A stretch of 64,000 nt of DNA from Clostridia bacterium (GTDB lineage Bacteria > Bacillota > Clostridia > Oscillospirales > Acutalibacteraceae), in the NCBI GenBank assembly GCA_017625095.1, contig JAGALQ010000041.1:1-64000 (forward strand). The letters run 5' to 3'. Numbering within the stretch: the stretch's first letter is position 1; each line of letters begins with the position of its first letter. The notes beneath the pieces are model-generated. The model did not search any database. It was not told where the DNA came from and saw only the letters and a program-made list of their open reading frames with translations. A program made the translations under genes and the position numbers. Of this stretch, positions 48,506 to 64,000 are shown piece by piece.

Positions 48506-50320
48506 TTGTCAGTACCCAAGGAAAATATACGAAATTTTTCAATCATTGCCCATATTGACCACGGCAAGTCCACACTTGCCGACAGACTGCTTGAGCTGAC
48601 AGACTCCGTTGCAAAACGTGATATGACAGCTCAGCTGCTGGATAATATGGACCTTGAGCGTGAGCGCGGAATCACAATCAAGGCTCACGCAGTAAAGCTT
48701 AACTACACCGCAAACGACGGTCAGGAGTATGAGCTCAACCTGATTGACACACCCGGTCACGTTGACTTCAACTACGAGGTTTCACGCTCACTTGCAGCGT
48801 GTGACGGCGCAATTCTTATCGTTGACGCCTCACAGGGCATTGAGGCACAGACACTTGCCAACACCTACCTTGCCCTCGACCACGATCTTGAGCTCGTGCC
48901 CGTAATCAACAAAATCGACCTGCCTGCCGCAGACCCCGACAGAGTTGCCGGTGAGGTAGAGGAGATTATCGGACTTGACTGCACAAACGCACCGAGAGTT
49001 TCCGCAAAGACAGGTGAAAACGTTGAGCAGGTGCTTGAACGCATTGTCCAGGATATTCCTGCACCTACAGCTGACGAAAATCTGCCTCTTCGTGCACTTA
49101 TCTTCGACTCCATCTATGACAGCTACCGCGGCGTTATCGTTTATGTGCGAATTATGGACGGTAAAATCAAAGCGGGCGACACAATGCGTATGATGGCAAC
49201 GGGCGCACAGTTTACCGTTGTCGAGGTAGGCTATATGCGCGCTACCTCACTTGAGCCGACAGACGAGCTCACTGCAGGCGAAGTAGGCTACATCACAGCA
49301 TCCATCAAAACCGTCGGCGATGCACGTGTCGGTGACACGGTTACAACTGCGGAAAATCCCGCCGCAGAGCCTCTGCCCGGCTACCGCAAGGTTAACCCGA
49401 TGGTATTCTGCGGTATCTACCCTGCAGACGGTGCGGATTACGAATCACTTCGTGACGCACTTCAGAAGCTTCAGCTCAACGATGCAGCTCTTTCTTATGA
49501 GCCCGAAACGTCGGGTGCTCTCGGCTTCGGTTTCCGTTGCGGCTTTCTCGGTCTGCTCCACCTTGAAATTATTCAGGAGCGACTTGAGCGTGAATACAAC
49601 CTCGACCTCGTCACAACCGTGCCGAGCGTTATCTACAAGATTCACACATCGGATGGCTCTATTCTCGAAATTGACAACCCGACCAACTATCCCGACCCTG
49701 CAATCATAACCGACTGCGAGGAGCCGATGACAAACGCCCACATCTACGCACCCAGCGACTATGTCGGCGCAATTATGGAGCTTTGTCAGGACAGACGCGG
49801 CACATTCAAGGATATGTCATACATCACAAAGGACCGTGTCGATATCCACTATGAGCTGCCCCTCAACGAAATTATCTACGATTTCTTTGATACGCTCAAA
49901 TCACGCACAAGAGGCTATGCATCATTCGATTACGAGATTTCTCAGTATCAGCCCTCAAAGCTTGTCAAACTTGACGTGCTTCTCAACGGTGACGTAATTG
50001 ATGCGCTTTCGTTCATTATTCACTCAGACAAGGCTTACGGCAGAGCACGTAAGATTGCGGAAAAGCTCAAGGATAACATTCCGCGTCAGATGTTTGAGAT
50101 TCCGATTCAGATTGCAATCGGCGGCAAGGTTATCGCCCGTGAAACCGTAAAAGCAATGCGCAAGGACGTTCTTGCAAAGTGTTACGGCGGCGATATAACA
50201 CGAAAGAAAAAGCTGCTTGAAAAGCAGAAGGAAGGTAAGAAGCGTATGCGCCAGTTCGGTACGGTTGAAGTGCCGCAAGAGGCGTTTATGGCTGTTCTCA
50301 AGCTTGATGATGACAACTGA
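48506..50320 (+). CDS. lepA: elongation factor 4 (LepA)
   Basis: A translational GTPase of about 604 aa that binds ribosomes and aids translation under stress. It begins [29 protein letters not shown] (G1 loop). G3 is DTPGHVDF and G4 [10 protein letters not shown]. The LepA-specific C-terminal domain has [26 protein letters not shown]. Two starts are possible: GTG 48497, with no ribosome binding site, or TTG 48506 with AGGTGA 6 nt upstream; the latter is chosen because homologues begin at this residue. It is followed by hemW with overlap, a common lepA-hemW order. Confidence 0.96.
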
Positions 50321-51419
50321 TTCTCCGGGGCTGTATATCCATATCCCCTTCTGTGCTTCAAAATGCCCTTACTGCGATTTTTATTCGCTGAAGGCAGATG
50401 AAGAAACCAAGGACAGATATACACACGCTATTATTAAAAACATTATATTAAAGCAGGAGCAACACGGCATCAGCTTCCCGACGGTTTATTTCGGCGGCGG
50501 CACACCGTCGCTGCTCGGCAGCAAAAGGCTTGTTGAGATTCTGCGCAAAATAAACAAATCAACCGATTGCGAGGTTACCGTAGAATGTAACCCATCTGAC
50601 CTTTGCGAAAACTGGACACCCGATGATATGCTCGCCCTTGCCGATGCAGGTGCAAACCGCATATCGATGGGTATGCAGTCTGCCATAGACAACGAGCGCA
50701 AAAAGCTCGGCAGACGCGCAGGAAAGAAAGAGGTTGCAAAAGCGGTTGAGCTTGTAAAAAATGCAGGCATTGACAACTTTTCGCTCGACCTTATGCTCGG
50801 CATACCGTTCCAGACAACGGACACAATCCGCGAAAGCATTGAATTCTGTGCTGAAAGCGGCGCAAAGCACGTCAGCAGCTACCTGCTAAAAATCGAACAG
50901 GGCACACCGTTTGAAAAGGTGGAAAAGCTGCTTGACCTGCCCGATGAGGACGAATGCTGCGATATGTACCTTGCGGCTTGCGAATGCCTTGAAGAGCACG
51001 GCTACAAGCAGTATGAGATATCCAACTTTTCCGTACCTGGATACGAAAGCAGGCATAATCTGATTTATTGGGATTGTCGGGAATACCTCGGAATCGGTGC
51101 TTCCGCTCACTCGTTTTTTGATGGAAAAAGGTTCTTTTACGAGCGTGATATCAACGCTTTTATTGACGGTGCAAAGCCGATTGATGACGGTGAAGGCGGC
51201 AGCTTTGAGGAGTATGCCATGCTCCGTTTAAGACTTGCCGACGGCTTGAAAAACGACAGCGTAAAAGCGCGCTTCGGCTTTGAAATCCCTGCAGAAATGC
51301 TTGAAAAATCAAGGCTTTTTGAAAAGAACGGTCTTACCGTAACCGACGGCAAAAACATTTCATTAACACCTAAAGGATTCCTCGTTTCCAACTCAATCAC
51401 AGCAAGTTTATTAAGCTGA
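50307..51419 (+). CDS. hemW: radical SAM heme chaperone HemW
   Basis: A 370-aa enzyme related to coproporphyrinogen oxidase HemN and now seen as a heme-insertion chaperone. The radical SAM cysteine motif is [16 protein letters not shown] (CxxxCxxC, near residues 14-21), followed by [11 protein letters not shown] and [15 protein letters not shown]. The C-terminal HemN-like region has [39 protein letters not shown] at 50307 is chosen because upstream residues are not family-like. The gene overlaps lepA by 14 bp and ends before a strong terminator. Confidence 0.93.
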
Positions 51420-51497
51420 TGAACTTTAGTTTTAATTTAAAGTATCCAAGACATATCTCTAACCAGATACAATCGAACAGACTTTTTCAAAAGACAT

Positions 51498-51572
51498 AAA
51501 ACCCCTGAGGGGCACTGAACAGGTTGCATTACGCATAATCTTTTCAGTCACCTCTCAAGGGGTTTGTTTTTT
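51498..51572 (+). terminator. terminator of the hemW-ended operon
   Basis: A long hairpin pairs AAACCCCT and further inner bases with AGGGGTTT around a loop (51498-51565), followed by TTTTTT-rich sequence. It lies about 80 bp after hemW and ends the long plus-strand run from the MFS gene. Confidence 0.75.
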
Positions 51573-51597
51573 CATGTTGTTAGTTTACGTTTTTCAA

Positions 51598-51741
51598 CCC
51601 TCAGTCACCTGCGGCGACAGCTCCTTTTGAAAGGAGGTGGATTTTGCGAAGCAAAAGACGGAGGGAGAGAACATATCGTTTATATTGGTTATTTTCTCTC
51701 TCCCTCAGTCACTTCGTGACAGCTCCCTCATCAGAGGGAGC
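51598..51741. repeat. intergenic composite repeat: two copies of a CCCTCAGTCAC-type unit
   Basis: Two related units (CCCTCAGTCAC-x-GACAGCTCC), at 51598-51624 and 51702-51726, enclose a stretch in which GAGGGAGAGA at 51661-51670 pairs with TCTCTCCCTC at 51697-51706. The second unit ends with GCTCCCTC-ATCA-GAGGGAGC (51722-51741). This motif type occurs repeatedly in Ruminococcaceae intergenic regions as short palindromic repeats. No coding function. Confidence 0.6.
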
Positions 51742-51808
51742 TTATAAACATATATATTACAACCTGCCGCCCGTGTTGATATTTTTACCTTGGCTCTGCG
51801 TTAATGCG

Positions 51809-51826
51809 GCAGGGGCAAGCCCCTGC
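51809..51826. repeat. short palindrome
   Basis: GCAGGGGC-AA-GCCCCTGC is a perfect palindrome, the second repeat type in the 51420-52164 gap. The gap has no credible gene. A 303-bp frame at 51644-51946 runs across repeats only. Confidence 0.55.
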
Positions 51827-51960
51827 CCTACGGCTGACGTATTAAACTCCGCTCGGATAATAATCAAGGCATATCACCGTCACCCTGCTCCGTTCAAAGT
51901 CACAGCATTTTTCGTTTATTGTGAGATATTGATTTTACGTTTTTGATCAATAAAAAATAT

Positions 51961-52038
51961 TGTCATTCTGAGCGACAGCGAAAAATCTTTTCAGGTAGCA
52001 TATTGCTTTTTTCGGACGACCAATGGTCGCCCCTACGG
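51961..52038. repeat. two further intergenic repeat units
   Basis: TGTCATTCTGAGCGACAGCG at 51961-51980 resembles a dispersed CATTCTGAGCG-type repeat of many Firmicutes. 52013-52038 holds CGACC-AAT-GGTCG followed by CCCCTACGG, another common palindromic type. Together with the units above, at least four unrelated repeat types are packed into about 450 bp. Confidence 0.5.
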
Positions 52039-52094
52039 TTTTCAGGATATCACGACAAAATATTACCGTTTTCGCTCATATAAAGGCAAAAAAC

Positions 52095-52141
52095 AAGGCT
52101 ACGCCAAGCACACCCCTTATGGGTCTGCCAAACGTAGCCTT
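52095..52141 (-). terminator. terminator of the PC4-like gene
   Basis: AAGGCTACG pairs with CGTAGCCTT at the ends of a longer hairpin with further inner pairing (ACCC/GGGGT), followed on the minus strand by GTTTTTTG. It lies 24 bp after the PC4-like stop. Confidence 0.8.
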
Positions 52142-52164
52142 AAGCTTTTTAGATTTTTAAAGAA

Positions 52165-52386
52165 TCAGGAGTAACGCTGAGCGAGGATCTTGAGGATTTC
52201 CTTAGCCTCTTCCTCTGTAAGGGTAACGCCCTTGCCCATCTTCTCGTGCTCGGGTGCCCACTCACGTACGTCGAGCTTGGGCTCTCTGCCATTCCAGCTG
52301 ATGAGGTTGAGCTCTTTTGTCCAGCCCTTTGCTGTTTCGGAAAGGACACCAAGTGTTTCTACGATGTTATAGGTAAATTCCGGCAT
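52165..52386 (-). CDS. PC4/YdbC-like single-stranded nucleic acid-binding protein
   Basis: A 73-aa protein. Its pattern EFTYNIVETLGVLSETAKGWTKELNLISWNGREPKLDVREWAPEH fits the bacterial YdbC family, the prokaryotic version of the transcription coactivator PC4 fold that binds single-stranded DNA or RNA. The second half TLTEEEAKEILKILAQ forms the C-terminal helix. AAGGAGCG lies 9 nt before the ATG. It is monocistronic, with its own terminator. Its precise role in Clostridia is not known. Confidence 0.85.
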   Translation of the reverse strand: MPEFTYNIVETLGVLSETAKGWTKELNLISWNGREPKLDVREWAPEHEKMGKGVTLTEEEAKEILKILAQRYS

Positions 52387-52692
52387 TTTTAAATTCGCTC
52401 CTTATGTATATTTATGGAATTCAGCTCAAGTTTAAGCTATAAAGCTTAATTTTTATTATAATTAAAATAAAATAAATATCAATATTATAATTAAAATTTA
52501 ATAAATATTTTACAATTTCAGTCCGAGTTTCAGCCGAATATCCGTCATAACGCAGATTATTATCTATATATGATAAAATTATATAAAACCGCTTGCAATT
52601 TAACGTTAAAAAGACTAAAATAGTAGAGATTAAATGTAATTATAATGGGTAAAAATTTGTATATACAATTAACCCTTATGAAAGGAAACGAT
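52387..52692. other. AT-rich intergenic region with divergent promoters
   Basis: A gap of about 300 bp between the PC4-like gene (minus) and oadA (plus). It is strongly AT-rich with AATAAATA-like tracts. The only clear element is the plus-strand promoter at 52593-52621. No ORF with a ribosome binding site and no stable RNA structure were seen. Confidence 0.6.
52593..52621 (+). promoter_or_regulatory. promoter of the oxaloacetate decarboxylase operon
   Basis: TTGCAA at 52593-52598 and TAAAAT at 52616-52621, spacer 17 bp. The start near 52628 leaves a leader of about 65 nt before oadA. Confidence 0.55.
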
Positions 52693-54087
52693 ATGGCAAA
52701 GATGAAAACTGTTCAATTCACAGAAACCGTACTTCGCGACGCCAATCAGTCACTCATCGCAACGAGAATGCCTATCTCCGACTTCAAAGAGGTTCTCGGA
52801 GAGCTTGACAAAGCAGGCTACTACTCGCTCGAATGCTGGGGCGGCGCAACCTTTGACTCATGTCTTCGTTACCTCAATGAAGACCCGTGGGAGAGACTCC
52901 GCACAATTAAGGCTGCTTGTCCCAACACAAAGCTTCAGATGCTCCTCAGAGGACAGAATCTTCTCGGATACAAGCATTATCCCGATGACGTAGTGCGTAA
53001 GTTTGTTTCAAAGAGCGTTGAAAACGGTATCGACATTATCCGTATCTTCGATGCGCTCAACGACCTTCGCAACGTTGAGGTTGCAGTTGATGAAACACTT
53101 AAGAGCGGTGCTATCGCATCCGGTACAATCTGCTACACAACAAGCCCCATTCACAACATTGAAAACTATGTCAAGGTTGCTGAAGGCTTTGCAAAAATGG
53201 GCGTGCAGACACTCTGTATCAAGGATATGGCAGGTATCCTCGCACCTCAGGAGGCATACGACCTCGTAAAGGCTATCAAAGAGGCAGTTAAGCTTCCCGT
53301 TGTTGTTCACACACACTCAACAACAGGTCTCGGTCTTGTAACTCTCCAGAAAGCTGTTGAAGCAGGTGCAGATGTTATTGACACCGCAATCTCCAGCCTT
53401 TCGGGCGGCACATCACAGCCCCCGACGGAAACTCTCGTCTACGCTCTCAAAAACCAGGGATACAACGTTGATCTTGATCAGAAAACACTTTCAAAGATAA
53501 ATTCTTTCTTCAAGCCGCTTCGTGCAAAGTATCTTGCAGACGGTGTTCTCAACCCCGTTGTTATGGCAACAGAGACAGATGCACTCGACTATCAGATTCC
53601 CGGCGGTATGCTCTCAAACCTCGTCGCTCAGCTCACAGCTCAGAACAAGCTTGACAAGCTCGACGAAGTTCTTGCAGAAACGCCCAGAGTCCGTGAGGAC
53701 CTCGGTTATCCGCCCCTTGTCACTCCCATGAGCCAGATGGTTGGTGTTCAGGCAACATTCAACGTGCTTCTCGGTGAGCGTTACAAGAACATCTCTAAGG
53801 AAGTCAAGGCATATATCAAGGGTGAATACGGCAAGGCTCCCGGCAAGGTAAGCGAAGACCTTCAGAAGCTTGTTCTCGGCGACGAGAAGCCCTTCACCGG
53901 CAGATTCGCAGACACTCTTGAGCCCGGCTTTGAGGCAGCAAAAGAGGAAATAGGCGACCTCGCTCACAGCGATGAAGACGTTCTTTCTTATATCGCCTTC
54001 CCGCAGCAGGCTAAGGCATTCCTCGAAGAAAGAGCCGAAAGAGAAAAACGCACATTCAAATATACCATCCAGGAAATCAAGGAGTGA
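52693..54087 (+). CDS. oadA: oxaloacetate decarboxylase, alpha subunit (carboxyltransferase)
   Basis: A 464-aa cytoplasmic subunit that moves CO2 from oxaloacetate to biotin. FTETVLRDANQSLIATRMP (metal-binding start of the HMGL-like barrel), CWGGATFDSCLRYLNEDPWERL, LLRGQNLLGYKHYPDD, IKDMAGIL and VHTHSTTGLG (metal His) are hallmarks. The PYC_OADA domain follows (about 300-460), with GGMLSNLVAQL. There is no C-terminal biotinyl domain; a separate carrier gene supplies it. ATG at 52693 with AAAGGA upstream is chosen over the longer 52645 start. Pyruvate carboxylase B subunits look similar, but the adjoining gamma, carrier and beta genes settle the call. Confidence 0.95.
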   Translation: MAKMKTVQFTETVLRDANQSLIATRMPISDFKEVLGELDKAGYYSLECWGGATFDSCLRYLNEDPWERLRTIKAACPNTKLQMLLRGQNLLGYKHYPDDVVRKFVSKSVENGIDIIRIFDALNDLRNVEVAVDETLKSGAIASGTICYTTSPIHNIENYVKVAEGFAKMGVQTLCIKDMAGILAPQEAYDLVKAIKEAVKLPVVVHTHSTTGLGLVTLQKAVEAGADVIDTAISSLSGGTSQPPTETLVYALKNQGYNVDLDQKTLSKINSFFKPLRAKYLADGVLNPVVMATETDALDYQIPGGMLSNLVAQLTAQNKLDKLDEVLAETPRVREDLGYPPLVTPMSQMVGVQATFNVLLGERYKNISKEVKAYIKGEYGKAPGKVSEDLQKLVLGDEKPFTGRFADTLEPGFEAAKEEIGDLAHSDEDVLSYIAFPQQAKAFLEERAEREKRTFKYTIQEIKE

Positions 54088-54094
54088 TTAAAAA

Positions 54095-54682
54095 ATGTTA
54101 GCAGGAAAGGCACTCGGCCTTACCGATGCTCTTATGGTTTCAGGTGTCGGTATAGTTGTAGTTATGGCAGAGCTTGCTCTGCTCGCTGTTCTGGTGTTTT
54201 TGCTCTCACGCCTTGTAAGCGCCCTCGTTAACAAAAAGAACGAGGATATAGACGATGCAGAGGTTTTTAATGATGGCACAGACAAGCCCGTTGCCGTAAA
54301 AAAAGCTCCTGCACAGGCAACCGGCACAAGCTGTGTAGAGCTTTACGGTGTTGACGAGCAGACAGCAGCCACAATAATGGCAACAGTAAGCCATCAGACA
54401 GGCGTTGACCTCAAGCACCTCGATTTCAAATCAATCAAGCTGCTTGACACACCGCTTGAGCTTATCGGTGTTGACGAGCCGACAGCCGCAATGGTAATGG
54501 CAGTTGTCAGCCACCAGACAGGTATTCCGCTTGAGAAGCTGGATTTCAGAAGAATCCGTTCACTTGAGTGGAACGGCATTGACGAGCCGACAGTCGCAAT
54601 CATAATGGCACTCGTCAGCAATCAGACAGGAATTCCGCTCGAAAGACTCGAGTTCAAATCAATCAAACCCATAGAGGAATAA
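54095..54682 (+). CDS. oadG: sodium pump decarboxylase, gamma subunit (OadG) with triple repeat extension
   Basis: A 195-aa protein. Residues 10-45 hold the single N-terminal transmembrane helix (DALMVSGVGIVVVMAELALLAVLVF) of OadG. A short charged linker leads to three tandem repeats at about 85-115, 125-155 and 161-191. Each contains DExT, then MA-x-VS-[HN]-QTG and L-x-x-L-[DE]-F. Most OadG subunits are about 80-120 aa, so the C-terminal repeat block is an unusual addition. OadG ties alpha to beta and helps assemble the pump; the repeats may add contacts. It is 7 bp after oadA. Confidence 0.85.
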   Translation: MLAGKALGLTDALMVSGVGIVVVMAELALLAVLVFLLSRLVSALVNKKNEDIDDAEVFNDGTDKPVAVKKAPAQATGTSCVELYGVDEQTAATIMATVSHQTGVDLKHLDFKSIKLLDTPLELIGVDEPTAAMVMAVVSHQTGIPLEKLDFRRIRSLEWNGIDEPTVAIIMALVSNQTGIPLERLEFKSIKPIEE

Positions 54683-54703
54683 AAGAAAGGCAAGGTAAAA
54701 ATC

Positions 54704-55138
54704 ATGAAATATATCGTATCACTTAACGGCAAAAGCTATGAAGTAGAGGTCAACGAGACCGACGCAGTTATCACAAACGTTACAACAGCTGCCGGCGCAG
54801 CTCCCGCTCCCGTTGCAGCTCCTGTAGCAGCTCCTGTAGCAGCTCCCGTTGCAGCTCCCGCTCCTGCAGCAGCACCTGCACCCGAGGCAGCACCCGCTCC
54901 CGCACCCGTTGCAGCTCCCTCAGCTGACGGCACAAAGGTTCTCGCTCCCATGCCCGGCACAGTGCTCAAGGTTCTCTGCAGCGTAGGCCAGGCTGTCAAG
55001 GCAGGCGACACACTCTTCATCCTTGAGGCTATGAAGATGGAAAACGAAATCACAGCAGAATGTGACGGTGTTGTAAAGCAGATTCTTGTCGGCAACAGCA
55101 CAGTTGTCAACACAGACGACGTTCTTGCAATTATCTGA
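54704..55138 (+). CDS. biotin carboxyl carrier protein of the decarboxylase
   Basis: A 144-aa carrier. An N-terminal segment of about 27 residues ([19 protein letters not shown]) is followed by a long Ala-Pro swivelling linker (about 30-72), then a biotinyl domain ([37 protein letters not shown]) with the biotinylated Lys in EAMKMEN. It carries CO2 from the alpha to the beta subunit. It lies between gamma and beta genes, with a good ribosome binding site. Confidence 0.95.
54815..54862 (+). repeat. 12-bp tandem repeat in the Ala-Pro linker of the biotin carrier
   Basis: Four 12-bp units (GCAGCTCCTGTA and variants with CCCGTT or CCCGCT) encode the AAPV/AAPA repeats. Such low-complexity coding repeats can expand or contract by slippage without frameshift. 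It is coding, not a CRISPR. Confidence 0.7.
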
Positions 55139-55155
55139 TTAAGGCGGTTAAATTA

Positions 55156-56331
55156 ATGTCTTTTCTTGGTGTACTTCAGGGACTTTGGGAAAGTTCAGGC
55201 ATAGCAGCCATCGGTTGGCAGCAGGGCGTTATGCTTCTCGTTTCCTTCGGTCTTCTTTATCTGGCAATAGTAAAAAAATTCGAACCGATGCTTCTTCTTC
55301 CGATTGCATTCGGTATGATGCTTGCAAACCTTCCCGAAACAGGTCTTATGGCAGACCCTGCAGGTCTGATGGATGCAACCCAGAAGGTTGAAGGTGCGCA
55401 TTGGTATGACGACGGTGTACTGAGGCTGATATACGTAGGCGTTAAGAGCAGTATTTTCCCCTGCCTTATCTTCATGGGTGTCGGCGCAATGACCGATTTC
55501 GGTCCGCTTCTCGCCAACCCCTCAAGCCTTCTGCTCGGTGCAGCAGCACAGCTCGGCATTTACATCGCATTTATCATCGCTATTCTCTTCGGCTTCAAAC
55601 CCGAAGAAGCAGCATCAATCGCAATCATCGGCGGTGCAGACGGCCCGACAGCTATCTTTACCGCATCAAAGCTTGCAGCTCACCTGCTCGCTCCCATTTC
55701 TGTTGCGGCTTATTCCTATATGGCTCTTATTCCGCTCATTCAGCCGCCCATTATGCGCCTGCTCACAACAAAAAAAGAGCGTGAGGTAAAGATGGGTCAG
55801 CTGCGTAAAGTAAGCAAGACAGAAAAGATTATCTTCCCGATTGTCGTTACTGTGCTTTGTGCGCTTATCATCCCCTCAACAGCTCCCCTTATCGGTATGC
55901 TTATGATAGGCAACCTCTTCCGTGAGTGCGGCGTTGTTGAAAGACTCAGCGACGTTTCGCAGAATGCCCTTTGCAACATCATAACAATACTTCTTGGTGT
56001 AACAGTCGGTGCAACGGCAAACGGCGAGCAGTTCCTTCAGATGAAGACACTCGGCATCATCGTTATCGGTCTTGTTTCTTTCTCCTTCTCAACCGCAGGC
56101 GGTGTTTTACTCGGCAAGCTGATGTATATCGTCACCAAAGGCAAGGTAAACCCCCTCATCGGTGCGGCAGGTGTTTCCGCAGTACCGATGGCTGCACGCG
56201 TTGCACAGGTTGAAGGCAAGAAGGCTAACCCCACAAACTTCCTTCTTATGCACGCTATGGGTCCCAACGTCGCAGGCGTTATCGGCTCAGCAGTTGCGGC
56301 AGGCTTTATGATGCTCCTCTTCCAGAGCTGA
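55156..56331 (+). CDS. oadB: sodium ion-translocating decarboxylase, beta subunit
   Basis: A 391-aa membrane protein (about 9-11 helices) that decarboxylates biotin-CO2 and pumps Na+ outward. Key motifs are FEPMLLLPIAFGMMLANLP, IGGADGPTAIFTASKLA (with the Asp essential in known OadB) and VTVGATANGEQFLQ. GVSAVPMAARVAQVEGKKANPTNFLLMHAMGPNVAG is conserved near the end. Last gene of the oad operon; its 3' end overlaps the convergent mecA-like gene by 26 bp. Confidence 0.96.
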   Translation: MSFLGVLQGLWESSGIAAIGWQQGVMLLVSFGLLYLAIVKKFEPMLLLPIAFGMMLANLPETGLMADPAGLMDATQKVEGAHWYDDGVLRLIYVGVKSSIFPCLIFMGVGAMTDFGPLLANPSSLLLGAAAQLGIYIAFIIAILFGFKPEEAASIAIIGGADGPTAIFTASKLAAHLLAPISVAAYSYMALIPLIQPPIMRLLTTKKEREVKMGQLRKVSKTEKIIFPIVVTVLCALIIPSTAPLIGMLMIGNLFRECGVVERLSDVSQNALCNIITILLGVTVGATANGEQFLQMKTLGIIVIGLVSFSFSTAGGVLLGKLMYIVTKGKVNPLIGAAGVSAVPMAARVAQVEGKKANPTNFLLMHAMGPNVAGVIGSAVAAGFMMLLFQS

Positions 56332-56884
56332 GCAGACCGACCGCATTTTCTTCGGCGATGCAGTGCCAATGCTCCGCAGTATGTGCCGCAAAAACCGCAC
56401 CCTCGCCAACGATTTTACCGAACTCGGCAAGGCAGGGCTTCAACAGCCCTGTCCCCGTTGTGCGGCTGCGCACAACAAGGCGGTATCTGCCGTCTGAACG
56501 ATAGAGCTTGCTTTCAACAATTAACCCGGAAAGGTTCAGTCTCTCCGCACAGCAAAAAAGCACATCAGCGTTTTCAAAATCACACGCTATGTAATCCGAC
56601 TTTTTCAGCAGATATTTTCTGTTTCTGTTTGCTACGCCGTGCTCAACGGAAAAGAACAGCAGGCAGCCGCCCGTCTCTCTCTGCATCGCTTCAACGAGCA
56701 GTCTGCCGGACGTGTTTATCTCCCGACCGATGCTTTTACCCGCACGCGAAAGCACAGTCCATATAACCCTTTTGGTTTCAACCTTTGAGTAATCCATCTC
56801 CTCATACGTAATATTGAGATTTTTCATATCATCCGCGGTCAGTTCAACGACAATCGCATCATCCGTAAGAACCTCCACTCTCAT
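56306..56884 (-). CDS. mecA: adaptor protein MecA
   Basis: A 192-aa adaptor that delivers proteins to the ClpC unfoldase. The N-terminal region MRVEVLTDDAIVVELTADDMKNLNITYEEMDY matches the MecA substrate-binding domain, followed by a longer hydrophilic middle and a C-terminal region (about 110-190) that would bind ClpC. The ATG at 56884 (MRVEVL) is chosen over the longer frame because a GGGGG run lies 7 nt upstream. It converges on oadB with a 26-bp overlap and is divergent from the Rnf-like operon. Confidence 0.85.
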   Translation of the reverse strand: MRVEVLTDDAIVVELTADDMKNLNITYEEMDYSKVETKRVIWTVLSRAGKSIGREINTSGRLLVEAMQRETGGCLLFFSVEHGVANRNRKYLLKKSDYIACDFENADVLFCCAERLNLSGLIVESKLYRSDGRYRLVVRSRTTGTGLLKPCLAEFGKIVGEGAVFAAHTAEHWHCIAEENAVGLLSSGRGAS

Positions 56885-56989
56885 CCGACAACCCCCTGTT
56901 ACATAAATTTGATCATAACTATCGTACAACCGATATCGACATAAAATCAAGGAACAAATAATGGTATTCACAGAAAGGAGACAATAAAA

Positions 56990-57934
56990 ATGGCAAAAAA
57001 AAGCTCGATTACAGCACAGCGCTCATTAAGCCTTGATCTGCTTGCAATGCTTATTCTGCCCATAGTCAGCTCTTGGTATTTTTATGGCACCGGAGCACTC
57101 AGACTTATTTTTATCAGTGTTATTGTCTGCGTATTATGTGAATTGCTCGGGCGCAGAATTCTCAAGCAGTCGTCCACCGTAACTGACCTGAGTGCGGTTA
57201 CAACCGGCATTATCCTTGCGCTTATGCTTCCTGCAAATGCTCCGCTGTGGATTCCCGTAATCGGCGGTATCTTTGCTATAGCAGCTGCAAAGCTCCCCTT
57301 CGGCTCTGTCGGAAAGCTCCCCTTCTCACCGGCAGCTGCAAGCTTTTCTTTTTTAACTATATGCTTCCCTGACATAATATTTAACTATCCGAGAATTTCT
57401 GCTTTCAGTGCCGCACTTTCCAGCACAAGCAGTTCTTCACTTACATCATTACTTGCAAGAAACGCATCAATCAGTCTCGGCTCCGTCAAGACAATTGACA
57501 TTATCATCGGCAACTTTCCCGGTCCGATGGGTGCCGGCTGCATAATGATACTTGCAGGCAGCGCAATATATATGCTTATCCGCCGCCCGAAGCTTTTCAT
57601 TACGGTTGCAGGCTTTATTCCGGGCGCCGCTCTTGCCGCAATATGCTTCCCGAGAACAGGCAGCCTCTTAACCTCTCTCGTTCTTGAGCTTTGCGCAGGA
57701 TATATAATTTTCGCTGCACTTTTCCTCATAACTGAAGCAGGCACTCAGCCTGAAAAAAATCTCAGCCGCCTTCTCTACGGCTTTACTGCAGGTCTTGCCT
57801 GTATGCTTATGAGACGTTTCGGAGCATTTGAGGAATGCTCATGTTTTGCCGTGCTGATTGTAAATGCAGCATGGCCCGTTGCTGACAAAGCAATCAACAA
57901 ACTTTCAAAGAAAGGAGAAAAGAAAGTAAAATGA
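56990..57934 (+). CDS. RnfD-like membrane protein lacking the flavin attachment motif
   Basis: A 314-aa membrane protein clearly related to RnfD/NqrB: SSTVTDLSAVTTGIILALMLPANAPLWIPVIGG, then TIDIIIGNFPGPMGAG and GAFEECSCFAVLIVNA correspond to conserved RnfD regions. In true RnfD a Thr in a GAT-type motif binds FMN covalently. Here the matching region (about 145-160) reads STSSSSLTSLL without GAT. NPALAAR is replaced by SPAAASF. The protein therefore probably lacks flavin. The first gene of a five-gene operon; AAAGGAG lies 9 nt upstream. It overlaps the CAP lipoprotein gene by 4 bp. Confidence 0.85.
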   Translation: MAKKSSITAQRSLSLDLLAMLILPIVSSWYFYGTGALRLIFISVIVCVLCELLGRRILKQSSTVTDLSAVTTGIILALMLPANAPLWIPVIGGIFAIAAAKLPFGSVGKLPFSPAAASFSFLTICFPDIIFNYPRISAFSAALSSTSSSSLTSLLARNASISLGSVKTIDIIIGNFPGPMGAGCIMILAGSAIYMLIRRPKLFITVAGFIPGAALAAICFPRTGSLLTSLVLELCAGYIIFAALFLITEAGTQPEKNLSRLLYGFTAGLACMLMRRFGAFEECSCFAVLIVNAAWPVADKAINKLSKKGEKKVK

Positions 57935-58731
57935 AAAAGATGAAAATACTTACAGCACTCTTACTCACAGCCATTCTATGCATTGGCCTTGCTTCATGTA
58001 GCCTTACCTTTATGAAAAAGAACAAAAATGATGAGACTACAACCGGCGAAAGGGTTGAATATCCGACAATATACTATAATCCGTTTGATAATTATTACAC
58101 CTATAGTTCGGATAACACAGAAGCTCCTGAACCCGTACCCGTTATCACAACCTCAGATTTCACCACAGCCAACGGTGTGATAACACAGCCGACTCAGCCC
58201 GCTACAACAAAGCCCGGTGTAACGGCAACAACTGCATCTGCCACCACAGCAACGGCACCTGCCACCACAACAACAGCGCCGACAACTGCAGCACCGACAA
58301 CAGCCGCAGCACCGACAACAACCGCAGCACCGACAACAACGGCACCTGCACCACTACCCGACGTTGAAGACAGTAACTTTGAAATTGCCGTTACCAAAGC
58401 GCTCAATGCTGAGCGTGAAGCAAACGGATTACAGCCGCTCACCCGTTCAAAAGAACTTTCGAGCGCAGCTAAGATAAGAGCAAAAGAAATTGCTACAAGC
58501 TTCGCACACATAAGACCCGACGGCAGCTTCTGGTATACTGTCAGCCCTGATGCAAGAGGAGAAAATCTCGCAAAGGACTATTCCACACCTGAAGAGGTAA
58601 TGGCCGGCTGGATGGAAAGTAATGATCACAAAGAAAACATACTTACTGACGATTATAAGACTGTAGGCACAGGCTGTTATTACGATTCGGCCACAGATAC
58701 ATATTATTGGGTGCAGCTTTTCGGCACCTGA
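57931..58731 (+). CDS. CAP-domain lipoprotein inside the Rnf-like operon
   Basis: A 266-aa exported protein. The signal peptide ends at lipobox GLASC (Cys23). A Thr/Ala/Pro-rich linker (about 70-140) leads to a CAP/SCP domain (about 145-266) with FEIAVTKALNAEREANGLQPLTRSKEL, FAHIRPDGSFW and GENLAKDYSTPEEVMAGWMESNDHKENIL, as in YkwD/SafA-type extracellular proteins. It occupies the RnfG position between the D-like and E-like genes but shows no RnfG FMN domain. It is coupled to the RnfD-like gene by a 4-bp ATGA overlap. CAP proteins often act in cell wall or extracellular binding; the role here is unknown. Confidence 0.9.
   Translation: MKKMKILTALLLTAILCIGLASCSLTFMKKNKNDETTTGERVEYPTIYYNPFDNYYTYSSDNTEAPEPVPVITTSDFTTANGVITQPTQPATTKPGVTATTASATTATAPATTTTAPTTAAPTTAAAPTTTAAPTTTAPAPLPDVEDSNFEIAVTKALNAEREANGLQPLTRSKELSSAAKIRAKEIATSFAHIRPDGSFWYTVSPDARGENLAKDYSTPEEVMAGWMESNDHKENILTDDYKTVGTGCYYDSATDTYYWVQLFGT
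58276..58344 (+). repeat. tandem repeat in the Thr/Pro-rich linker
   Basis: One 15-bp and three 18-bp units (GCACCGACAACAACCGCA and close variants) at 58276-58290, 58291-58308, 58309-58326 and 58327-58344 encode the AAPTTT repeats of the CAP lipoprotein linker. It is coding, not a CRISPR. Confidence 0.7.
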
Positions 58732-58771
58732 CAGTTGAGAAACATATTCTGATATAAGGAGGAAAAGATTA

Positions 58772-59941
58772 ATGGCATCAAATAACAAGGCACCCGGTCT
58801 GCTTATGAAAAATGCAGGCATATTCAATCCCGTTCTTGTTCAGGCGGTCGGACTTTGCCCTGTTGTAGCAATGGCGACCTCTGTCAAAAGCGCTGCCCTT
58901 CTTGCAGGCATTTCTGCTGTTATCATCACACTTAGCGAATTTTTTGCCTCGCTTTTCCTCAAGGCCGTTCCCCGTTGGATAAGAATCGGCATATACATCA
59001 TACTCGGCGGTGCAATTGTTGTTCCGTTTATGATTTTTATCGAACGCACAAACGCATCTCTTTTCGGCTCATTCGGCATATATCTGCCTATTATGGCGGT
59101 CAACTCACTCAACGTACTGCGTTGCGAAAGATTTGCCGTTAAAATCTCTCCGCTTGCCGCTCTGGCAGACGGCGTAACCGCTTCTCTGGGTTATTCAGCC
59201 GTTCTTATATTTGTTGGATTTTTCAGAGAAATTCTCGGAAGCGGAAGCCTTTTCGGTGTACAGATATTCAGAGGCTTCTCTATGCCGGGTCTGCTCCTCC
59301 CCTTCGGAGGTTTCCTGATGCTTGGCTTTGCAGGCGCATTGCTCAGAACACTTATTTCAAAATTCTGGCCCAAGTATCTTGATAAAAAACAACCCAAACC
59401 CATAAGCAGCAAGAGCAGGAAAAAGCCCGGTAAAAAGCAAAATGCGCAAACCTTTACAGAGGTTCCCGAATTTGATGCGGACGAATCACTGTTCAGCCTT
59501 GAAGACATCTCACAGTACGAAGAAACCGAGGAATATGATGATTCTGCACGGGCAGAGTACAACCCATCTGTTATTCCGGAACAGCCGACAGCAAAGGTTG
59601 CACACGAAAGCACCGAAAAAGTTATTCCGCCTATTTCATCTGTTAAGGAAAAAGCCGAAACACGTGCTACAGAGCGACCCAAGGCAACTGTTATGCCAAA
59701 GCCTACCGTTACGCATAAACCTCAGCCACCCGTTATAAAGAAGCCTCAACCACCAGCTATTAAACAAACAACAGCCAAAAAGCCTGATATCGGACTTAAA
59801 GAGCTGTCACTTGACGATATTTCTGCAGACACATCCAAGACTTCATCATCGGGTACCAATGCAGAAGACGAACTTGAACTGCTTATGAACCGTTCAATCG
59901 GAGACATCCTTTCAGCGCAAAAGAAGGAGGATGACAAATGA
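58772..59941 (+). CDS. RnfE-like membrane protein with long C-terminal extension
   Basis: A 389-aa protein. Residues about 10-205 align with RnfE/NqrD: GIFNPVLVQAVGLCPVVAMATSV keeps the first Fe-S Cys (Cys29). At the second site the usual VNC is AVNSLNVLRCERFA, Ser112 in place of the Cys, with a shifted Cys118. About six helices. From about 210 on, an unusual hydrophilic tail (about 180 residues) is rich in Lys, Pro, Glu and Ser (QPPVIKKPQPPAIK) and ends with ELELLMNRSIGDILSAQKK, possibly a short amphipathic helix. Standard RnfE proteins (about 200-230 aa) lack this. It overlaps the RnfA-like gene by 4 bp. Confidence 0.85.
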   Translation: MASNNKAPGLLMKNAGIFNPVLVQAVGLCPVVAMATSVKSAALLAGISAVIITLSEFFASLFLKAVPRWIRIGIYIILGGAIVVPFMIFIERTNASLFGSFGIYLPIMAVNSLNVLRCERFAVKISPLAALADGVTASLGYSAVLIFVGFFREILGSGSLFGVQIFRGFSMPGLLLPFGGFLMLGFAGALLRTLISKFWPKYLDKKQPKPISSKSRKKPGKKQNAQTFTEVPEFDADESLFSLEDISQYEETEEYDDSARAEYNPSVIPEQPTAKVAHESTEKVIPPISSVKEKAETRATERPKATVMPKPTVTHKPQPPVIKKPQPPAIKQTTAKKPDIGLKELSLDDISADTSKTSSSGTNAEDELELLMNRSIGDILSAQKKEDDK

Positions 59942-60525
59942 TTTTTGCATTTTTAAACGCCTCTGTTTTCGCCCTGATATTACAGAACTTTGTATTCAAC
60001 GGCGGCTTCGGTATGAGTGAAGCAATACGAATCGCAACAAAGCCGAAGGATTTCTTCCCGATTGCTGTGCTTGTTGCATTTTTCACAAGTGCCACTGCCG
60101 CAGTTTGCAGCTTGCTTGACCTTATAGCCGCAATCAATGCTCTTTCAACCGCAGAACACCTTGGCATATACTGTCTTGTTCTTGCACTTATTTATTTGGT
60201 TTTCACTGGAATCAACCTGCTGATTTACCCCAAAAACAAACAGAACATTCACCGAATCGGTATGGCAGCCGTAAACACACTTGTTCTCGCCGTTCCGATT
60301 ATAAACCGCCGTGCCGCTTTCAACACTGCCGAATCAATCGGTCTCGGTCTCGGTGCAGGCATTGCGTTTATTATCGCTGTTCTGCTTATCTCCGCTGCCG
60401 AAGAGCGCATCAGAGAAAACGACACAATGAGCAACGCTTTCAAGGGCAAGCCTGCTCTCTTTATTTACATCGCACTGATTTCGCTTGGCTTTGCCGGTCT
60501 TTCGGGTCAGTCACTCTTTGTCTGA
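59938..60525 (+). CDS. RnfA-like membrane protein lacking Fe-S cysteines
   Basis: A 195-aa protein of RnfA/NqrE size, with about six helices. The N-terminal stretch ILQNFVFNGGFGMSEAI aligns with RnfA NNFVLSRFLGICPFLG, with Ser27 instead of the Fe-S Cys. The second conserved TNCAVLG is AVNTLVLAV (Thr114 instead of Cys). AESIGLGLGAGIAFIIAVLLISAAEERI and PFRGTPI-like AFKGKPALFI are clearly RnfA-like. Loss of both Cys indicates no shared [2Fe-2S] cluster of the normal type. It follows the RnfE-like gene with a 4-bp overlap and is 9 bp from the next gene. Confidence 0.85.
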   Translation: MIFAFLNASVFALILQNFVFNGGFGMSEAIRIATKPKDFFPIAVLVAFFTSATAAVCSLLDLIAAINALSTAEHLGIYCLVLALIYLVFTGINLLIYPKNKQNIHRIGMAAVNTLVLAVPIINRRAAFNTAESIGLGLGAGIAFIIAVLLISAAEERIRENDTMSNAFKGKPALFIYIALISLGFAGLSGQSLFV

Positions 60526-60534
60526 GGTGATATT

Positions 60535-60915
60535 ATGGCAGATAATGAGTTTGACAAAAAAACTGACGGCGAGCTTCCCGAAGATTTCCGCCCTGTTATA
60601 CCTGAACCTGAAATGCACCGCAGACCCATAATCGGATTCTATAAGAACTATCCCGTTCAGGAAAATCCGACCTCCACCCATACACAAAGCTTTGCCCAGC
60701 AGGAACATAACCGCAAAATAAGAAACGGTATTCTTTACGGCATTGCACTTTTAGCGATTTTTATCATCACCTTCATCATCACCGACACCTGTATTAAAAT
60801 ATCAAAAGAGCCTATCCCCCCGACAACTGCAGCTGTCACACAGGCTCCGACACAGGAAGCCTCACAGGTTACGGAAGAAACATCTGAAGCTGTTGAAGAA
60901 ACATCTGAAAACTGA
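60535..60915 (+). CDS. single-pass membrane protein in the Rnf-like operon
   Basis: A 126-aa protein. The N-terminal 60 residues are hydrophilic (FRPVIPEPEMHRRPIIGFYKNYP), one transmembrane helix spans about 65-85 (ILYGIALLAIFIITFIITD), and the C-terminal 40 residues are Thr/Glu/Ala-rich (TEETSEAVEETSEN) and probably outside the cell. No family recognised. As the last gene of the operon, 9 bp after the RnfA-like gene, it may be an accessory subunit of the same complex. Confidence 0.75.
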   Translation: MADNEFDKKTDGELPEDFRPVIPEPEMHRRPIIGFYKNYPVQENPTSTHTQSFAQQEHNRKIRNGILYGIALLAIFIITFIITDTCIKISKEPIPPTTAAVTQAPTQEASQVTEETSEAVEETSEN

Positions 60916-60917
60916 GC

Positions 60918-60949
60918 AAAAGAACTGTCGCGCAGACAGTTCTTTTTTG
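60918..60949 (+). terminator. terminator of the Rnf-like operon
   Basis: AAAGAACTGTC pairs with GACAGTTCTTT around a 5-nt loop, followed by a T-run. It lies 3 bp after the stop of the single-pass protein gene. Confidence 0.85.
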
Positions 60950-60980
60950 TTGTTTTTCAGTATCTTTTATTCAAAAATAT

Positions 60981-61009
60981 TTGACAAATGAGTAAAACAC
61001 ATATATTAT
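60981..61009 (+). promoter_or_regulatory. consensus promoter of rhaA
   Basis: TTGACA at 60981-60986 and TATTAT at 61004-61009, spacer 17 bp, the same hexamers as the 5S promoter at 28009-28037. No operator-like inverted repeat was seen between it and rhaA. Confidence 0.8.
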
Positions 61010-61050
61010 AAACTATATATACCTAACTTTAAAATAAGGTGGCATAAATT

Positions 61051-62298
61051 ATGACCGAGCGCTATGAATCAGCAAAAAAAATCTACGCTTCAATCGGCAT
61101 TGATACCGATGCCGTAATCGAAAAGCTTGACAGCGTGCGTATATCCCTGCACTGCTGGCAGGGTGACGACGTAAGCGGCTTTGAAAGCAGCGGTGAGCTT
61201 TCCGGCGGTATTCAGGCAACAGGCAATTACCCTGGCAAGGCACGCAATGCGCAGGAGCTTATGGCAGACCTCGACAAGGCACTCAGCCTTATCCCCGGCG
61301 CACACAAGATAAATCTCCACGCAACCTATGCAATCCTCGGCGACGAAAAGGTCAGCCGCGATAAACTCCGCCCCGAGCATTTTGCTCCCTGGGTTGAGTT
61401 TGCAAAGCAGAGAGGTCTCGGCCTCGATATCAATCCGACCCTCTTTTCACATCCCCTCGCAGCAGACGGTCTCACACTTTCTCACCCCGATGAGAAAATC
61501 CGCCGTTTCTGGATTGACCACTGCAAGGCAATGAGAAAAATCGGTGAGTATTTCGGCAGAGAGCTCGGCATCACCTGCGTAAACAATATCTGGATTCCCG
61601 ACGGATACAAAGACGTACCCGCAGACCGTATAGGTCCGAGAAAGCGTCTTATGGATGCACTCGATGAAATCCTTTCAGAGCAGATTGACCCGAAATATCT
61701 TGTAGACACCGTTGAATCCAAGGTCTTCGGTATCGGTGTTGAATCCTATACGGTAGGCTCGCACGAATTCTATATGAACTATGCTGCAACAAGAGGCTGT
61801 ATCTGCCTGCTTGACAACGGCCACTACCACCCGACAGAGGTTGTATCAGACAAGATTCCCTCAATGCTTCTCTTCAGTGACAAGGTTGCTCTACACGTCA
61901 CAAGAGGTGTACGTTGGGACAGCGACCACGTTGTAACATTTGACGATGAGCTTAAAGAAATCGCAAAGGAAATTGTCCGCTGCGATGCACTTGACAGAGT
62001 GCTTATCGGTCTTGATTACTTCGATGCCAGCATCAACCGCGTTGCCGCCTGGATAATCGGCGCACGCAATATGCGCAAAGCACTGCTCAACGCAATGCTC
62101 ATTCCCCACGCACAGCTTAAAGCTATGCAGGACAGCGCCGACTTCACATCACTTCTCGCAATGACGGAAGAACTCAAGCTCTATCCCTTCGGCGACGTAT
62201 GGGAAGAGTACTGTGCACGCAAGGGTGTCCCCGCAAGAGAAGGCTGGCTTACAGACATCAAAAAATACGAAGCTGACGAGCTTTCAAAGAGGGTGTAA
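61051..62298 (+). CDS. rhaA: L-rhamnose isomerase
   Basis: A 415-aa cytoplasmic enzyme that converts L-rhamnose to L-rhamnulose. It has the RhaA pattern [16 protein letters not shown] near the start, [30 protein letters not shown] and [12 protein letters not shown]. Metal-binding regions include [25 protein letters not shown] and DNGHYHPTE. The length is close to the normal 419. AAGGTGG lies 8 nt before the ATG. It is not near other rhamnose genes (rhaB, rhaD, transporter), but followed by a Nif3-family gene and serS, so the rest of the pathway must be elsewhere. Confidence 0.95.
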
Positions 62299-62301
62299 AC
62301 A

Positions 62302-63060
62302 ATGCCCACCGTCAGAGAGATTTTTGACTATATAAACTCGCTCGCACCGTTTGCAACACAGGAGAGCTGGGACAACAGCGGTCTGCTGCTCGGCGATCCC
62401 GACAAAAAGGTAAGCCGTGTTTCTCTCGCCCTTGATACAACAACCAAAACCGTCAGAGCTGCAAAAGAAAACGGCGCAGAGCTTATGATTACACACCACC
62501 CCGTTATCTTTTCACCTGCAAAAAAGATTCTCGCAGGCAGCGTACCGTATGAGCTTCTCACAAACGGTATAAGCGCAATCAGCGCACACACCTGCCTTGA
62601 CTCTGCCGAGGGCGGTGTTAACGACACGCTTGCTGCAATACTTGAGCTTGAGGATATTTATCCGCTCGAGCTTGACGGCACTGATACTCCGCTTGTAAGA
62701 GTCGGCAGATTAAAAGCTCCGATGAGCGGTGACGAATTTGCAAAGCACGTTAAGGCAAAGCTCGGCTGCAGCTTAAGGCTTGCCAATGCAGGCAACACAA
62801 TAAGTACGGTTGCAGTGTGCGGCGGCTCACTCAGTTCGCTCACCTATGAGCTTATAGGCAAGGTCGATGCATTTGTAACGGGCGATCTCACCCACCACTA
62901 CTTTATCGATGCTGCCGACAGCGGCCTTACAGCAGTTGCCGCAGGTCACTTTGAAACGGAGAATCCCGTTATCACAGTGCTCGCGGATAAGCTGAGCCGA
63001 CAGTTCCCCGATGTTGAATTCACAGTAATAAACCAGGAAAACCCTGTAGTATACTATTGA
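62302..63060 (+). CDS. Nif3-like dinuclear metal protein
   Basis: A 252-aa cytoplasmic protein of the Nif3/YbgI family (also called GTP cyclohydrolase I type 2). [29 protein letters not shown] (metal His pair), ISAHTCLDS and GHFETE near the C-terminus match the metal-binding residues. YqfO-type inserts are absent, so this is the short form. The function of the family is unsettled. It follows rhaA by 3 bp and precedes serS. Confidence 0.92.
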
Positions 63061-63076
63061 AAGGATATGGCAAACA

Positions 63077-64000
63077 ATGCTTGATATTAAAATTATCCGT
63101 GAAAATCCCCAGCTCGTAAAAGATGCTATGAAAAAGCGCAACAAGGATATGGATGCCCTTGTTGACGAAGTACTTGCAATAGATGCTGAGCGCCGCGAGC
63201 TCACACTCAAACTCGACCAGCTCAAGCAGGAGCAGAATGCCGCAAGCCGTGAGATCCCCAAGATCAAAAAAGAGGGCGGCGACATTTCCGCCATTATGGC
63301 ACGTATGAATGAAATCAAAGAAACAGTAAAAGGCGGCGATGCACAGCTTTCAGAGCTTGAAGCAAAGCAGCAGAAGATAATGTATGAGTTCCCCAACATC
63401 CCCAACCCCACAATTCCCGTAGGTAAGGATGACAGCGACAACGAAGAAATCCGCCGCTGGGGCGAACCCACAACATTTGACTTTGAGCCTAAGGCACACT
63501 GGGATGTCGGTGCAGACCTCGGCATTCTCGACCCCGAAACAGCTGCAAAGGTTACAGGCGCACGCTTTCATTTCTACAAGGCAGCAGGCGCAAGACTTGA
63601 GAGAGCGGTCATCAACTTCTTCCTCAACACTCACACAGAGCACGGCTATACAGAGGTATTCCCGCCCTTTATGGTAAACCGTGCATCAATGACAGGTACA
63701 GGTCAGCTTCCCAAATTTGAGGAGGATGCTTTCAGACTTGAGCGTGAGGACTACTTCCTTATTCCCACAGCAGAAGTTCCTGTTACAAATATGCACCGCA
63801 ACGATATCCTCGACGGTGCACAACTTCCCATCAGCTACTGTGCTTATTCAGCTTGCTTCCGTGCAGAGGCCGGCAGCGCAGGCCGTGACACAAGAGGTCT
63901 TATCCGCCAGCACCAGTTCAACAAGGTTGAGCTTGTCAAGTTTGCCGATCCCGAAACATCATACGACGAACTCGAAAAGCTCACAAACGATGCTGAGCGT
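63077..64000 (+). CDS. serS: seryl-tRNA synthetase (partial at window end)
   Basis: The first 308 codons of a class II synthetase, running off the window. It begins [18 protein letters not shown], with the family's N-terminal coiled coil (about 30-105, Arg/Glu/Lys-rich). The catalytic core includes [27 protein letters not shown] (motif 1) and [36 protein letters not shown] (motif 2). The length to the window edge is an intact frame. AAGGA lies 11 nt upstream of the ATG. It is co-directional with rhaA and nif3, only 16 bp after nif3. Confidence 0.95.

Follow-up and report, generated by a model that had tools for sequence, protein, structure and literature searches.

The DNA analysed here (64,000 nucleotides of contig JAGALQ010000041.1, below termed the window) carries at positions 56,990 to 60,915 five open reading frames (ORFs) which include homologues of RnfD, RnfE and RnfA, the membrane subunits of the Rnf complex; these are designated D', E' and A', respectively, and an RnfC homologue that occurs at related loci is designated C'. 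Judged by spacing, the five ORFs probably form a single transcription unit: the D'/CAP and E'/A' ORFs each overlap by 4 bases, and the gaps between CAP and E' and between A' and the small protein measure 40 and 9 bases. The genes and features of the locus are the following.

56990..57934, + strand: D', RnfD/NqrB homologue without flavinylation motif (PF03116, 199.1 bits; alignment to the RnfD chain)
57931..58731, + strand: CAP lipoprotein (PF00188, 70.5 bits; lipobox-like LASC read from the sequence)
58772..59941, + strand: E', RnfE/NqrD homologue with a C-terminal tail (PF02508, 108.6 bits; RnfE alignment)
59938..60525, + strand: A', RnfA/NqrE homologue (PF02508, 63.3 bits; RnfA alignment)
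60535..60915, + strand: small single-pass protein (transmembrane (TM) scan: TM 65-83; basic N-terminus)
60918..60946, + strand: terminator-like stem of 12 pairs closing the operon (consensus match only, from a search giving 12 such sites in the region vs 5.2 expected)
56306..56884, - strand: mecA-like gene, divergent from D' (PF05389, 51.3 bits)

The Pfam matches of D', CAP, E' and A' all exceed their cut-offs. The membrane subunits of an Rnf are thereby represented by one PF03116 and two PF02508 proteins, but D', E' and A' remain far below the cut-offs of the NCBIfam rnfD, rnfE and rnfA families (139.9 vs 207.05, 89.8 vs 213.4 and 42.5 vs 229.3, respectively). Among chains of solved structure, D' matches RnfD (4.8e-30), E' matches NqrD and RnfE (7.8e-22 and 4.3e-21) and A' matches RnfA (5.3e-08). 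An initial annotation of the window had recognized homologues of RnfD, RnfE and RnfA unaccompanied by RnfB, RnfC or RnfG, with which both the Pfam matches and the alignments to solved chains agree; neither RnfB nor RnfG occurs within the window operon, FMN_bind having been searched genome-wide and RnfB not.

The known redox sites (numbered as in Acetobacterium woodii, PMC11889175, and mapped via alignment to the solved chains) are largely lost from these proteins. In A', S27 and T114 align with RnfA C25 and C113, as had been proposed, and in E', C29 and S112 align with RnfE C25 and C108; the window thus keeps one of the four Cys that bind the [2Fe-2S] cluster of Rnf. The proposal that E' retains only one of two Cys is right when homologous positions are compared (C29; S112) but not by count, owing to an extra C118. 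In D', S150 aligns with T156 of RnfD, the position of flavin mononucleotide (FMN) attachment, and no flavinylation motif surrounds it, which bears out the reported absence of a GAT motif; the riboflavin ligands RnfD N123 and D249 are likewise replaced, by S113 and E249. Alternative alignments (solved chains and more than 100 relatives) restore neither the Cys nor the Thr.

Distribution, canonical Rnf and selection

A search for A' over 150 genomes of the window's family gave a match in 109, canonical RnfA among them. Examination of 54 loci in 54 genomes revealed the divergent cluster (or part of it, at contig ends) in 50 and a canonical operon in four, which places the divergent cluster in at least 50 of the 150 genomes, the window genome not counted. 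Of these 50 loci, 42 have a ribulose-phosphate epimerase (Rpe) gene near the cluster and 33 a gene for a MecA homologue; loci showing both are usually arranged as Rpe > MecA < [C'] D' E' A' [GHx]. C' lies upstream of D' in 24 of the 50; among the 26 loci without it, a contig end hides the upstream side in four (L039, L060, L069 and L074). Across 295 genomes of the order, a profile search matched 242, most at canonical strength, with strong matches in the window's family and in two further families, f26 and f5 (f5 being represented by one genome, 55% complete). Eighteen further regions showed C' in five and again the same gene order, which is preserved over three families of the order. In 391 genomes of the class there were nine matches at 1e-33 or better, all in the window's family or f26. 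The search of relatives for this gene order that the initial annotation had suggested finds the cluster widespread. Of 71 named loci, nine (L122-L127 and L129-L131), all near relatives of the window, have the CAP gene inserted after D' and before E'. These named loci belong to uncultured or metagenome-assembled bacteria, mostly Clostridia/Oscillospiraceae/Ruminococcaceae, many from animal guts. Single-sequence profiles of RnfB and RnfG gave no match in the 71, and C' occurs in none of them, which is no estimate of its frequency as they were found via window-clade patterns.

The window genome also encodes a complete canonical rnfC-D-G-E-A-B operon on another contig (C11), with apbE nearby. Searches over the whole genome detected two PF03116 proteins (one per cluster), four PF02508 proteins (two per cluster), one FMN_bind protein (canonical RnfG), and one match each for RnfC_N and the C' profile, both being canonical RnfC. 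C' was found neither in the window cluster nor in the rest of the genome, where canonical RnfC is the sole RnfC-like match; the genome is 87% complete and such absences are not absolute. The possibility that rnfB, rnfC and rnfG elsewhere in the genome complement the window genes as a normal Rnf had been raised; those found belong to the canonical operon, which has its own D, E and A.

The cluster also stands INDEPENDENCE from Rnf in three genomes (G103, G051 and G077), each of which has exactly two PF02508 proteins, both in the divergent cluster. They come from ten genomes checked, several of which were chosen because earlier searches had hinted at the absence of a canonical Rnf, and are 99% (2 contigs), 97% and 93% complete, respectively. 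G077 has neither C' nor an FMN_bind protein, and the C' profile, which detects canonical RnfC in other genomes, gives no match there. Because no canonical PF02508 pair is present, the divergent module needs no canonical Rnf, at least in these three genomes. A canonical RnfC match was obtained in 25 of 27 selected cluster-bearing genomes. As separate observations, a short FMN_bind protein adjoins apbE in G051 (contig C5, 41993-43229), which lacks canonical Rnf, and perhaps belongs to another flavin-based system; the canonical RnfE of locus L005 (7336-8052) bears a Cys-rich C-terminal extension, and five sampled canonical RnfE proteins contain six to seven Cys each.

Comparison of the window genes with those of eight relatives, expressed as the ratio of nonsynonymous to synonymous differences per site (pN/pS, reported in place of dN/dS as synonymous divergence, dS, is near saturation), gave 0.17-0.32 for A', 0.24-0.40 for D' and 0.22-0.36 for the E' core, together with 0.54-0.70 for the E' tail, 0.29-0.46 for the small protein and 0.47-0.54 for CAP. 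Purifying selection thus acts on A', on D' and on the core of E'. A tree of concatenated D'E'A' (86 rows, quick method, three long end branches, with the Shimodaira-Hasegawa-like approximate likelihood ratio test, SH-aLRT, as the only support measure) separates the divergent rows from the canonical ones and unites the window clade in one group, both with a support of 100. The presence of C' changes four times on this tree, change counts being unable to separate gain from loss; in the simplest reading one divergent ancestor possessed C', which was then lost several times.

Cofactor sites, E' tail and anchor protein across the relatives

Site counts are given below in the order window clade, loci with C', f26 without C' and canonical operons, the last comprising five operons only. 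Fragments shorter than 180 amino acids were dropped, L069, L074 and L077, whose upstream side is truncated or ambiguous, were left out along with L039-L060 (their clade being covered by the named loci), and L082, a single further locus without C', was kept apart.

Cys at the position of RnfA C25 occurs in 0/72, 0/27, 0/13 and 5/5 proteins and at that of RnfA C113 in 0/72, 5/27, 5/13 and 5/5; for RnfE C25 the counts are 54/70, 12/29, 0/13 and 5/5, and for RnfE C108 0/70, 0/29, 0/13 and 5/5. Of the 111 divergent loci in which A' and E' are both present, 38 have none of the four Cys, 72 have one and a single locus has two, compared with all four in 5/5 canonical operons. Around the former cluster site the window clade shows residues of its own that are not canonical (A' E28 in 72/72 and R31 in 71/72); elsewhere position 28 of A' is Arg in 15/27 proteins with C' and Val, Thr, Arg or Ile in f26. 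Two further Cys characterize this clade, namely A' C57 (70/72, not canonical) and E' C118, six residues past S112 (67/70, 2/29, 0/13 and 0/5). A site made up of E' C29, E' C118 and A' C57 was considered and set aside, as the inferred topology places C118 near the cytosolic side and C57 near the outer side. The equivalents of RnfE R67 and E115, Na+-entry residues that were mutated in A. woodii (PMC11889175), are E' R71 (69/70, 24/29, 13/13 and 5/5) and E119 (69/70, 3/29, 10/13 and 5/5), the single remaining row of the window clade being a gap at both.

In D', Ser or Thr occupies the FMN position in 64/70, 28/29, 5/13 and 5/5 proteins, with Ser in 64/70 of the window clade and 26/29 of the loci with C'; this Ser is conserved and does not represent random loss. 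The full flavinylation motif is present in 0/113 D' proteins and a looser ending ([GAST]A[ST]) in 8/113, the canonical RnfD proteins showing the full motif in 2/5 and the looser one in 3/5; Ala precedes the acceptor Ser in 6/70 of the window clade and 4/29 with C', and is found in 5/5 canonical proteins. A canonical-type RnfD at locus L081 (9073-10182) has Ser instead of Thr at the attachment position. The riboflavin Asn is retained in 2/70, 23/29, 9/13 and 5/5 proteins and the Asp in 23/70, 25/29, 9/13 and 5/5. Both ligands occur in 19/25 tree rows with C' vs 8/56 without it, with only two independent pairs on supported branches; the raw counts agree with a link between C' and these ligands, which is statistically not established. 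Three charged residues of D' (R222, E233 and E281) are found in 65, 65 and 66 of 70 proteins of the window clade, in 27, 27 and 24 of 29 with C' and in 6, 8 and 10 of 13 in f26, and are absent in the five canonical RnfD. ApbE, which is able to modify serine (PMC12052999), is encoded in G103 and G077, both without an FMN_bind match or canonical Rnf, and nothing telling was found in the apbE neighbourhoods of these two genomes. ApbE is weak evidence for a flavinylated D' because it also occurs in 10/20 genomes without an RnfA-profile match (4/13 of those of high quality).

All 29 C' proteins, the spurious antisense ORF of L066 being excluded, contain both CxxCxxCxxxC (4Fe-4S) motifs and none has the GGAG[FY]P flavin/NADH motif; both features are present in 5/5 canonical RnfC. 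Given that the D' Ser, the riboflavin ligands and the 4Fe-4S motifs of C' are mostly kept, the C'-D'-E'-A' form may still move electrons.

E' consists of an RnfE-like part (residues 1 to ~195) followed by a tail of ~190 residues, whose LMNRSxxDIL-like end motif is common to near relatives; short motifs recur at the tail ends of relatives, and the median length of E' is 351 amino acids in the window clade vs 230 with C'. The tail would be cytosolic, judging from a topology that puts RnfE R67/E115 near the cytosolic side. The small protein is homologous to the N-terminal anchor of a membrane-bound DUF4015 protein encoded at other loci and is of the kind that consists of the anchor alone: it aligns at 37 bits with positions 11-97 of 419, the first quarter, of a profile built for that protein, and at 32.7 bits (blastp) with a 390-amino acid protein of L042. 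The DUF4015 domain (PF13200), a putative glycosyl hydrolase (GH) domain, was present in the three full-length anchor proteins scanned. On the 3' side of A' in the 71 named loci, a protein of at least 300 amino acids with an N-terminal TM anchor is encoded in 34 and a protein of anchor size only in 28 (one doubtful), no anchor protein was found in 8 and one locus ends with the contig; the anchor is retained where the DUF4015 domain is missing. The anchor protein may occupy the place of RnfG, which likewise combines a single TM helix with a domain on the outer side (PMC11889175).

Relation to known systems and possible function

The cluster is closest to Rnf, as represented by the structures from C. 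tetanomorphum, A. woodii and A. vinelandii: D', E' and A' are homologous to its subunits, as is C' in the form that has it, the C-D-E-A order matches the canonical rnfCDGEAB of the window genome, and the window-clade E' keeps the equivalents of RnfE R67/E115. Unlike Rnf, it is devoid of RnfB, RnfG, the A/E [2Fe-2S] ligands and (in the window) the D' flavinylation motif, its C' is absent or without the flavin/NADH motif, and it has an extra anchor protein and the E' tail. Because defining features of Rnf were tested and not found, the cluster is regarded as derived from Rnf rather than as a member. The B/D/E membrane core of the Na+-translocating NADH:quinone oxidoreductase (Na+-NQR) is also homologous to D'/E'/A', but the operon has no NqrF, NqrA or NqrC homologue, the ligands are lost, and D' and A' match Rnf better in sequence than Na+-NQR, E' matching the two about equally. 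Two-subunit NQR/RNF-like systems pair an FMN_bind protein with an RnfD-like part that is joined to a PF00175 domain (PMC8238504, PMC11334425) and likewise include an NqrB/RnfD homologue without the flavinylation Thr outside a full Rnf (PMC11334425); in contrast, D' has only PF03116, no FMN_bind protein occurs in the operon and E' and A' homologues are present, which do not figure in the sections of these sources that describe the two-subunit systems. A C-D-E-A or D-E-A relative of Rnf without redox sites was not found described in the open-licence literature, most subscription papers lying outside that scope, and the initial annotation had known of no such system either.

In Rnf the cluster Cys are located at kinked helices where an hourglass is narrowest (PMC9588780). 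Around the cluster the A/E halves alternate between facing inward and facing outward, and Na+ is bound beside it (PMC11889175). The ion path is placed in A/E by PMC11889175 and in D/NqrB by work cited there, and the coupling is disputed. On balance we favour the view that the cluster is a paralogue of Rnf which lost its cofactors stepwise and is now a non-redox membrane module, silent in redox terms in the window's lineage. The form with C' would have lost RnfB, RnfG, the A/E [2Fe-2S] site and the flavin/NADH motif of RnfC while keeping the two 4Fe-4S motifs of C' and, mostly, the riboflavin ligands; the window clade would then have lost C' and, for the most part, the riboflavin ligands as well. 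The remaining D', E' and A', along with a single-pass anchor with an outside part, offer no known complete electron path. The reuse of the membrane scaffold put forward in the initial annotation is supported in that the loss of redox sites is real, clade-wide and accompanied by purifying selection; the operon is not an isolated oddity, being one end of a series whose other form has C'.

Within such a module the E'/A' inverted pair would retain the Rnf fold and its alternation between facing inward and facing outward, with hydroxyl and charged residues at the former cluster site (A' S27, E28, R31 and T114; E' C29 and S112). In the window form, a Glu/Arg pair and hydroxyls at the helix kink, together with the Arg/Glu of cytosolic Na+ entry kept in E', would make up a redox-silent gate, carrier or relay; either an ion or small solute would pass through the module, or a conformational signal would link the extracellular GH-like/CAP proteins to the cytosolic E' tail. 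Only tentatively, and with distinctly less confidence, do we consider a further-reaching view, in which the core of an electron-driven ion pump became, through successive loss of its known cofactor sites, an alternating-access carrier or signal relay that works without redox chemistry and connects an extracellular GH-like or CAP protein with a cytosolic tail; the intermediate, with a ferredoxin-domain C' and flavin ligands in D', would still be alive in sister lineages. Several observations weigh against a redox-silent transport module. The RnfA Na+ residues T110/T111 are not kept in A', and the differences between clades at the former cluster site argue against one conserved transport site. 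A metal or thiol site of unrecognized type, involving E' C29 (54/70), C118 and A' C57, is possible, and the conserved Ser at the FMN position of D' (64/70) is more than pure redox silence requires. Moreover, f26 mostly keeps the riboflavin ligands (9/13 each) without C', and their loss is not simply tied to that of C'.

A rival view is that of a residual one-way electron carrier, in which electrons pass from reduced ferredoxin or another donor to the 4Fe-4S centres of C', then to riboflavin and Ser-linked or non-covalent FMN in D' and finally to an outside acceptor, with another donor standing in for C' in genomes that lack it. The two CxxCxxCxxxC motifs of C' (29/29) speak for it, as do the retention with C' of the D' Asn (23/29), Asp (25/29) and FMN-site Ser/Thr (28/29), the ability of ApbE to use serine (PMC12052999), the occurrence of ApbE in G103 and G077 despite the absence there of an FMN_bind match and canonical Rnf, and the Ser in the canonical RnfD of L081. 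However, GGAG[FY]P is missing from every C' (29/29), Ala rarely precedes the acceptor Ser in D' (6/70 and 4/29, vs 5/5 canonical), ApbE is also encoded in genomes without an RnfA-profile match (10/20), and the window clade has neither C' nor, mostly, the riboflavin ligands; we regard such a carrier as rather improbable. A similarly low probability is given to a purely structural scaffold that holds extracellular GH-like/CAP proteins and, via the E' tail, a cytosolic partner without any transport. The persistence of the anchor protein with or without its outer domain, the longer E' of the window clade (351 vs 230 amino acids) with recurring motifs at its tail ends, and the D' charges R222, E233 and E281, common in the divergent forms and absent in five canonical RnfD, speak for such a scaffold, but its needs are exceeded by the retained R71/E119 and by E28/R31, which are invariant at the kink of the former cluster.

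That the proteins serve a normal Rnf, in hybrid complexes with subunits of the canonical operon, is very improbable: a canonical RnfC match does accompany the cluster in 25/27 selected genomes, but the canonical operon has a full set of subunits, D, E and A included, the A/E site of a hybrid would lack cluster ligands, and for G103, G077 and G051 (3/10 checked, several picked as suspects) hybrids are rejected in the absence of a canonical PF02508 pair. Even less credence is given to a decaying pseudogene cluster, which would account for the lost catalytic residues and subunits; the frames are open throughout, the gene order is kept in three families of the order, and the pN/pS of the membrane core, well below 1, leads to its rejection.

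Many clostridial gut bacteria thus carry a second Rnf-derived gene set whose core probably has a role different from electron transport. Because selection maintains it in many genomes, this natural A/E/D core devoid of known cofactor sites is well suited to testing the abilities of the bare core, and the gradation from loci with C' to those without it and to those without flavin ligands would show a redox pump being dismantled into something else.

Regarding the surroundings of the operon, the mecA-like gene likely starts with the ATG at 56884 and not at 56971, where its longest ORF begins, in which case the D' start lies ~105 bp from it. Nothing reached the Rfam gathering score within 50000-64000. 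Directly upstream of the mecA-like gene (window 52645-56331) there is a Na+-transporting decarboxylase cluster (OadA-like protein, biotin carrier and OadB), which also occurs at L040 and L041, from the window's genus, where most other loci carry rpe. Within it, positions 54095-54682 encode a 195-amino acid protein without a Pfam match at 1e-4; a direct repeat of 102 bases occurs there in three copies, of which two match the reference copy with 73% and 77% identity.

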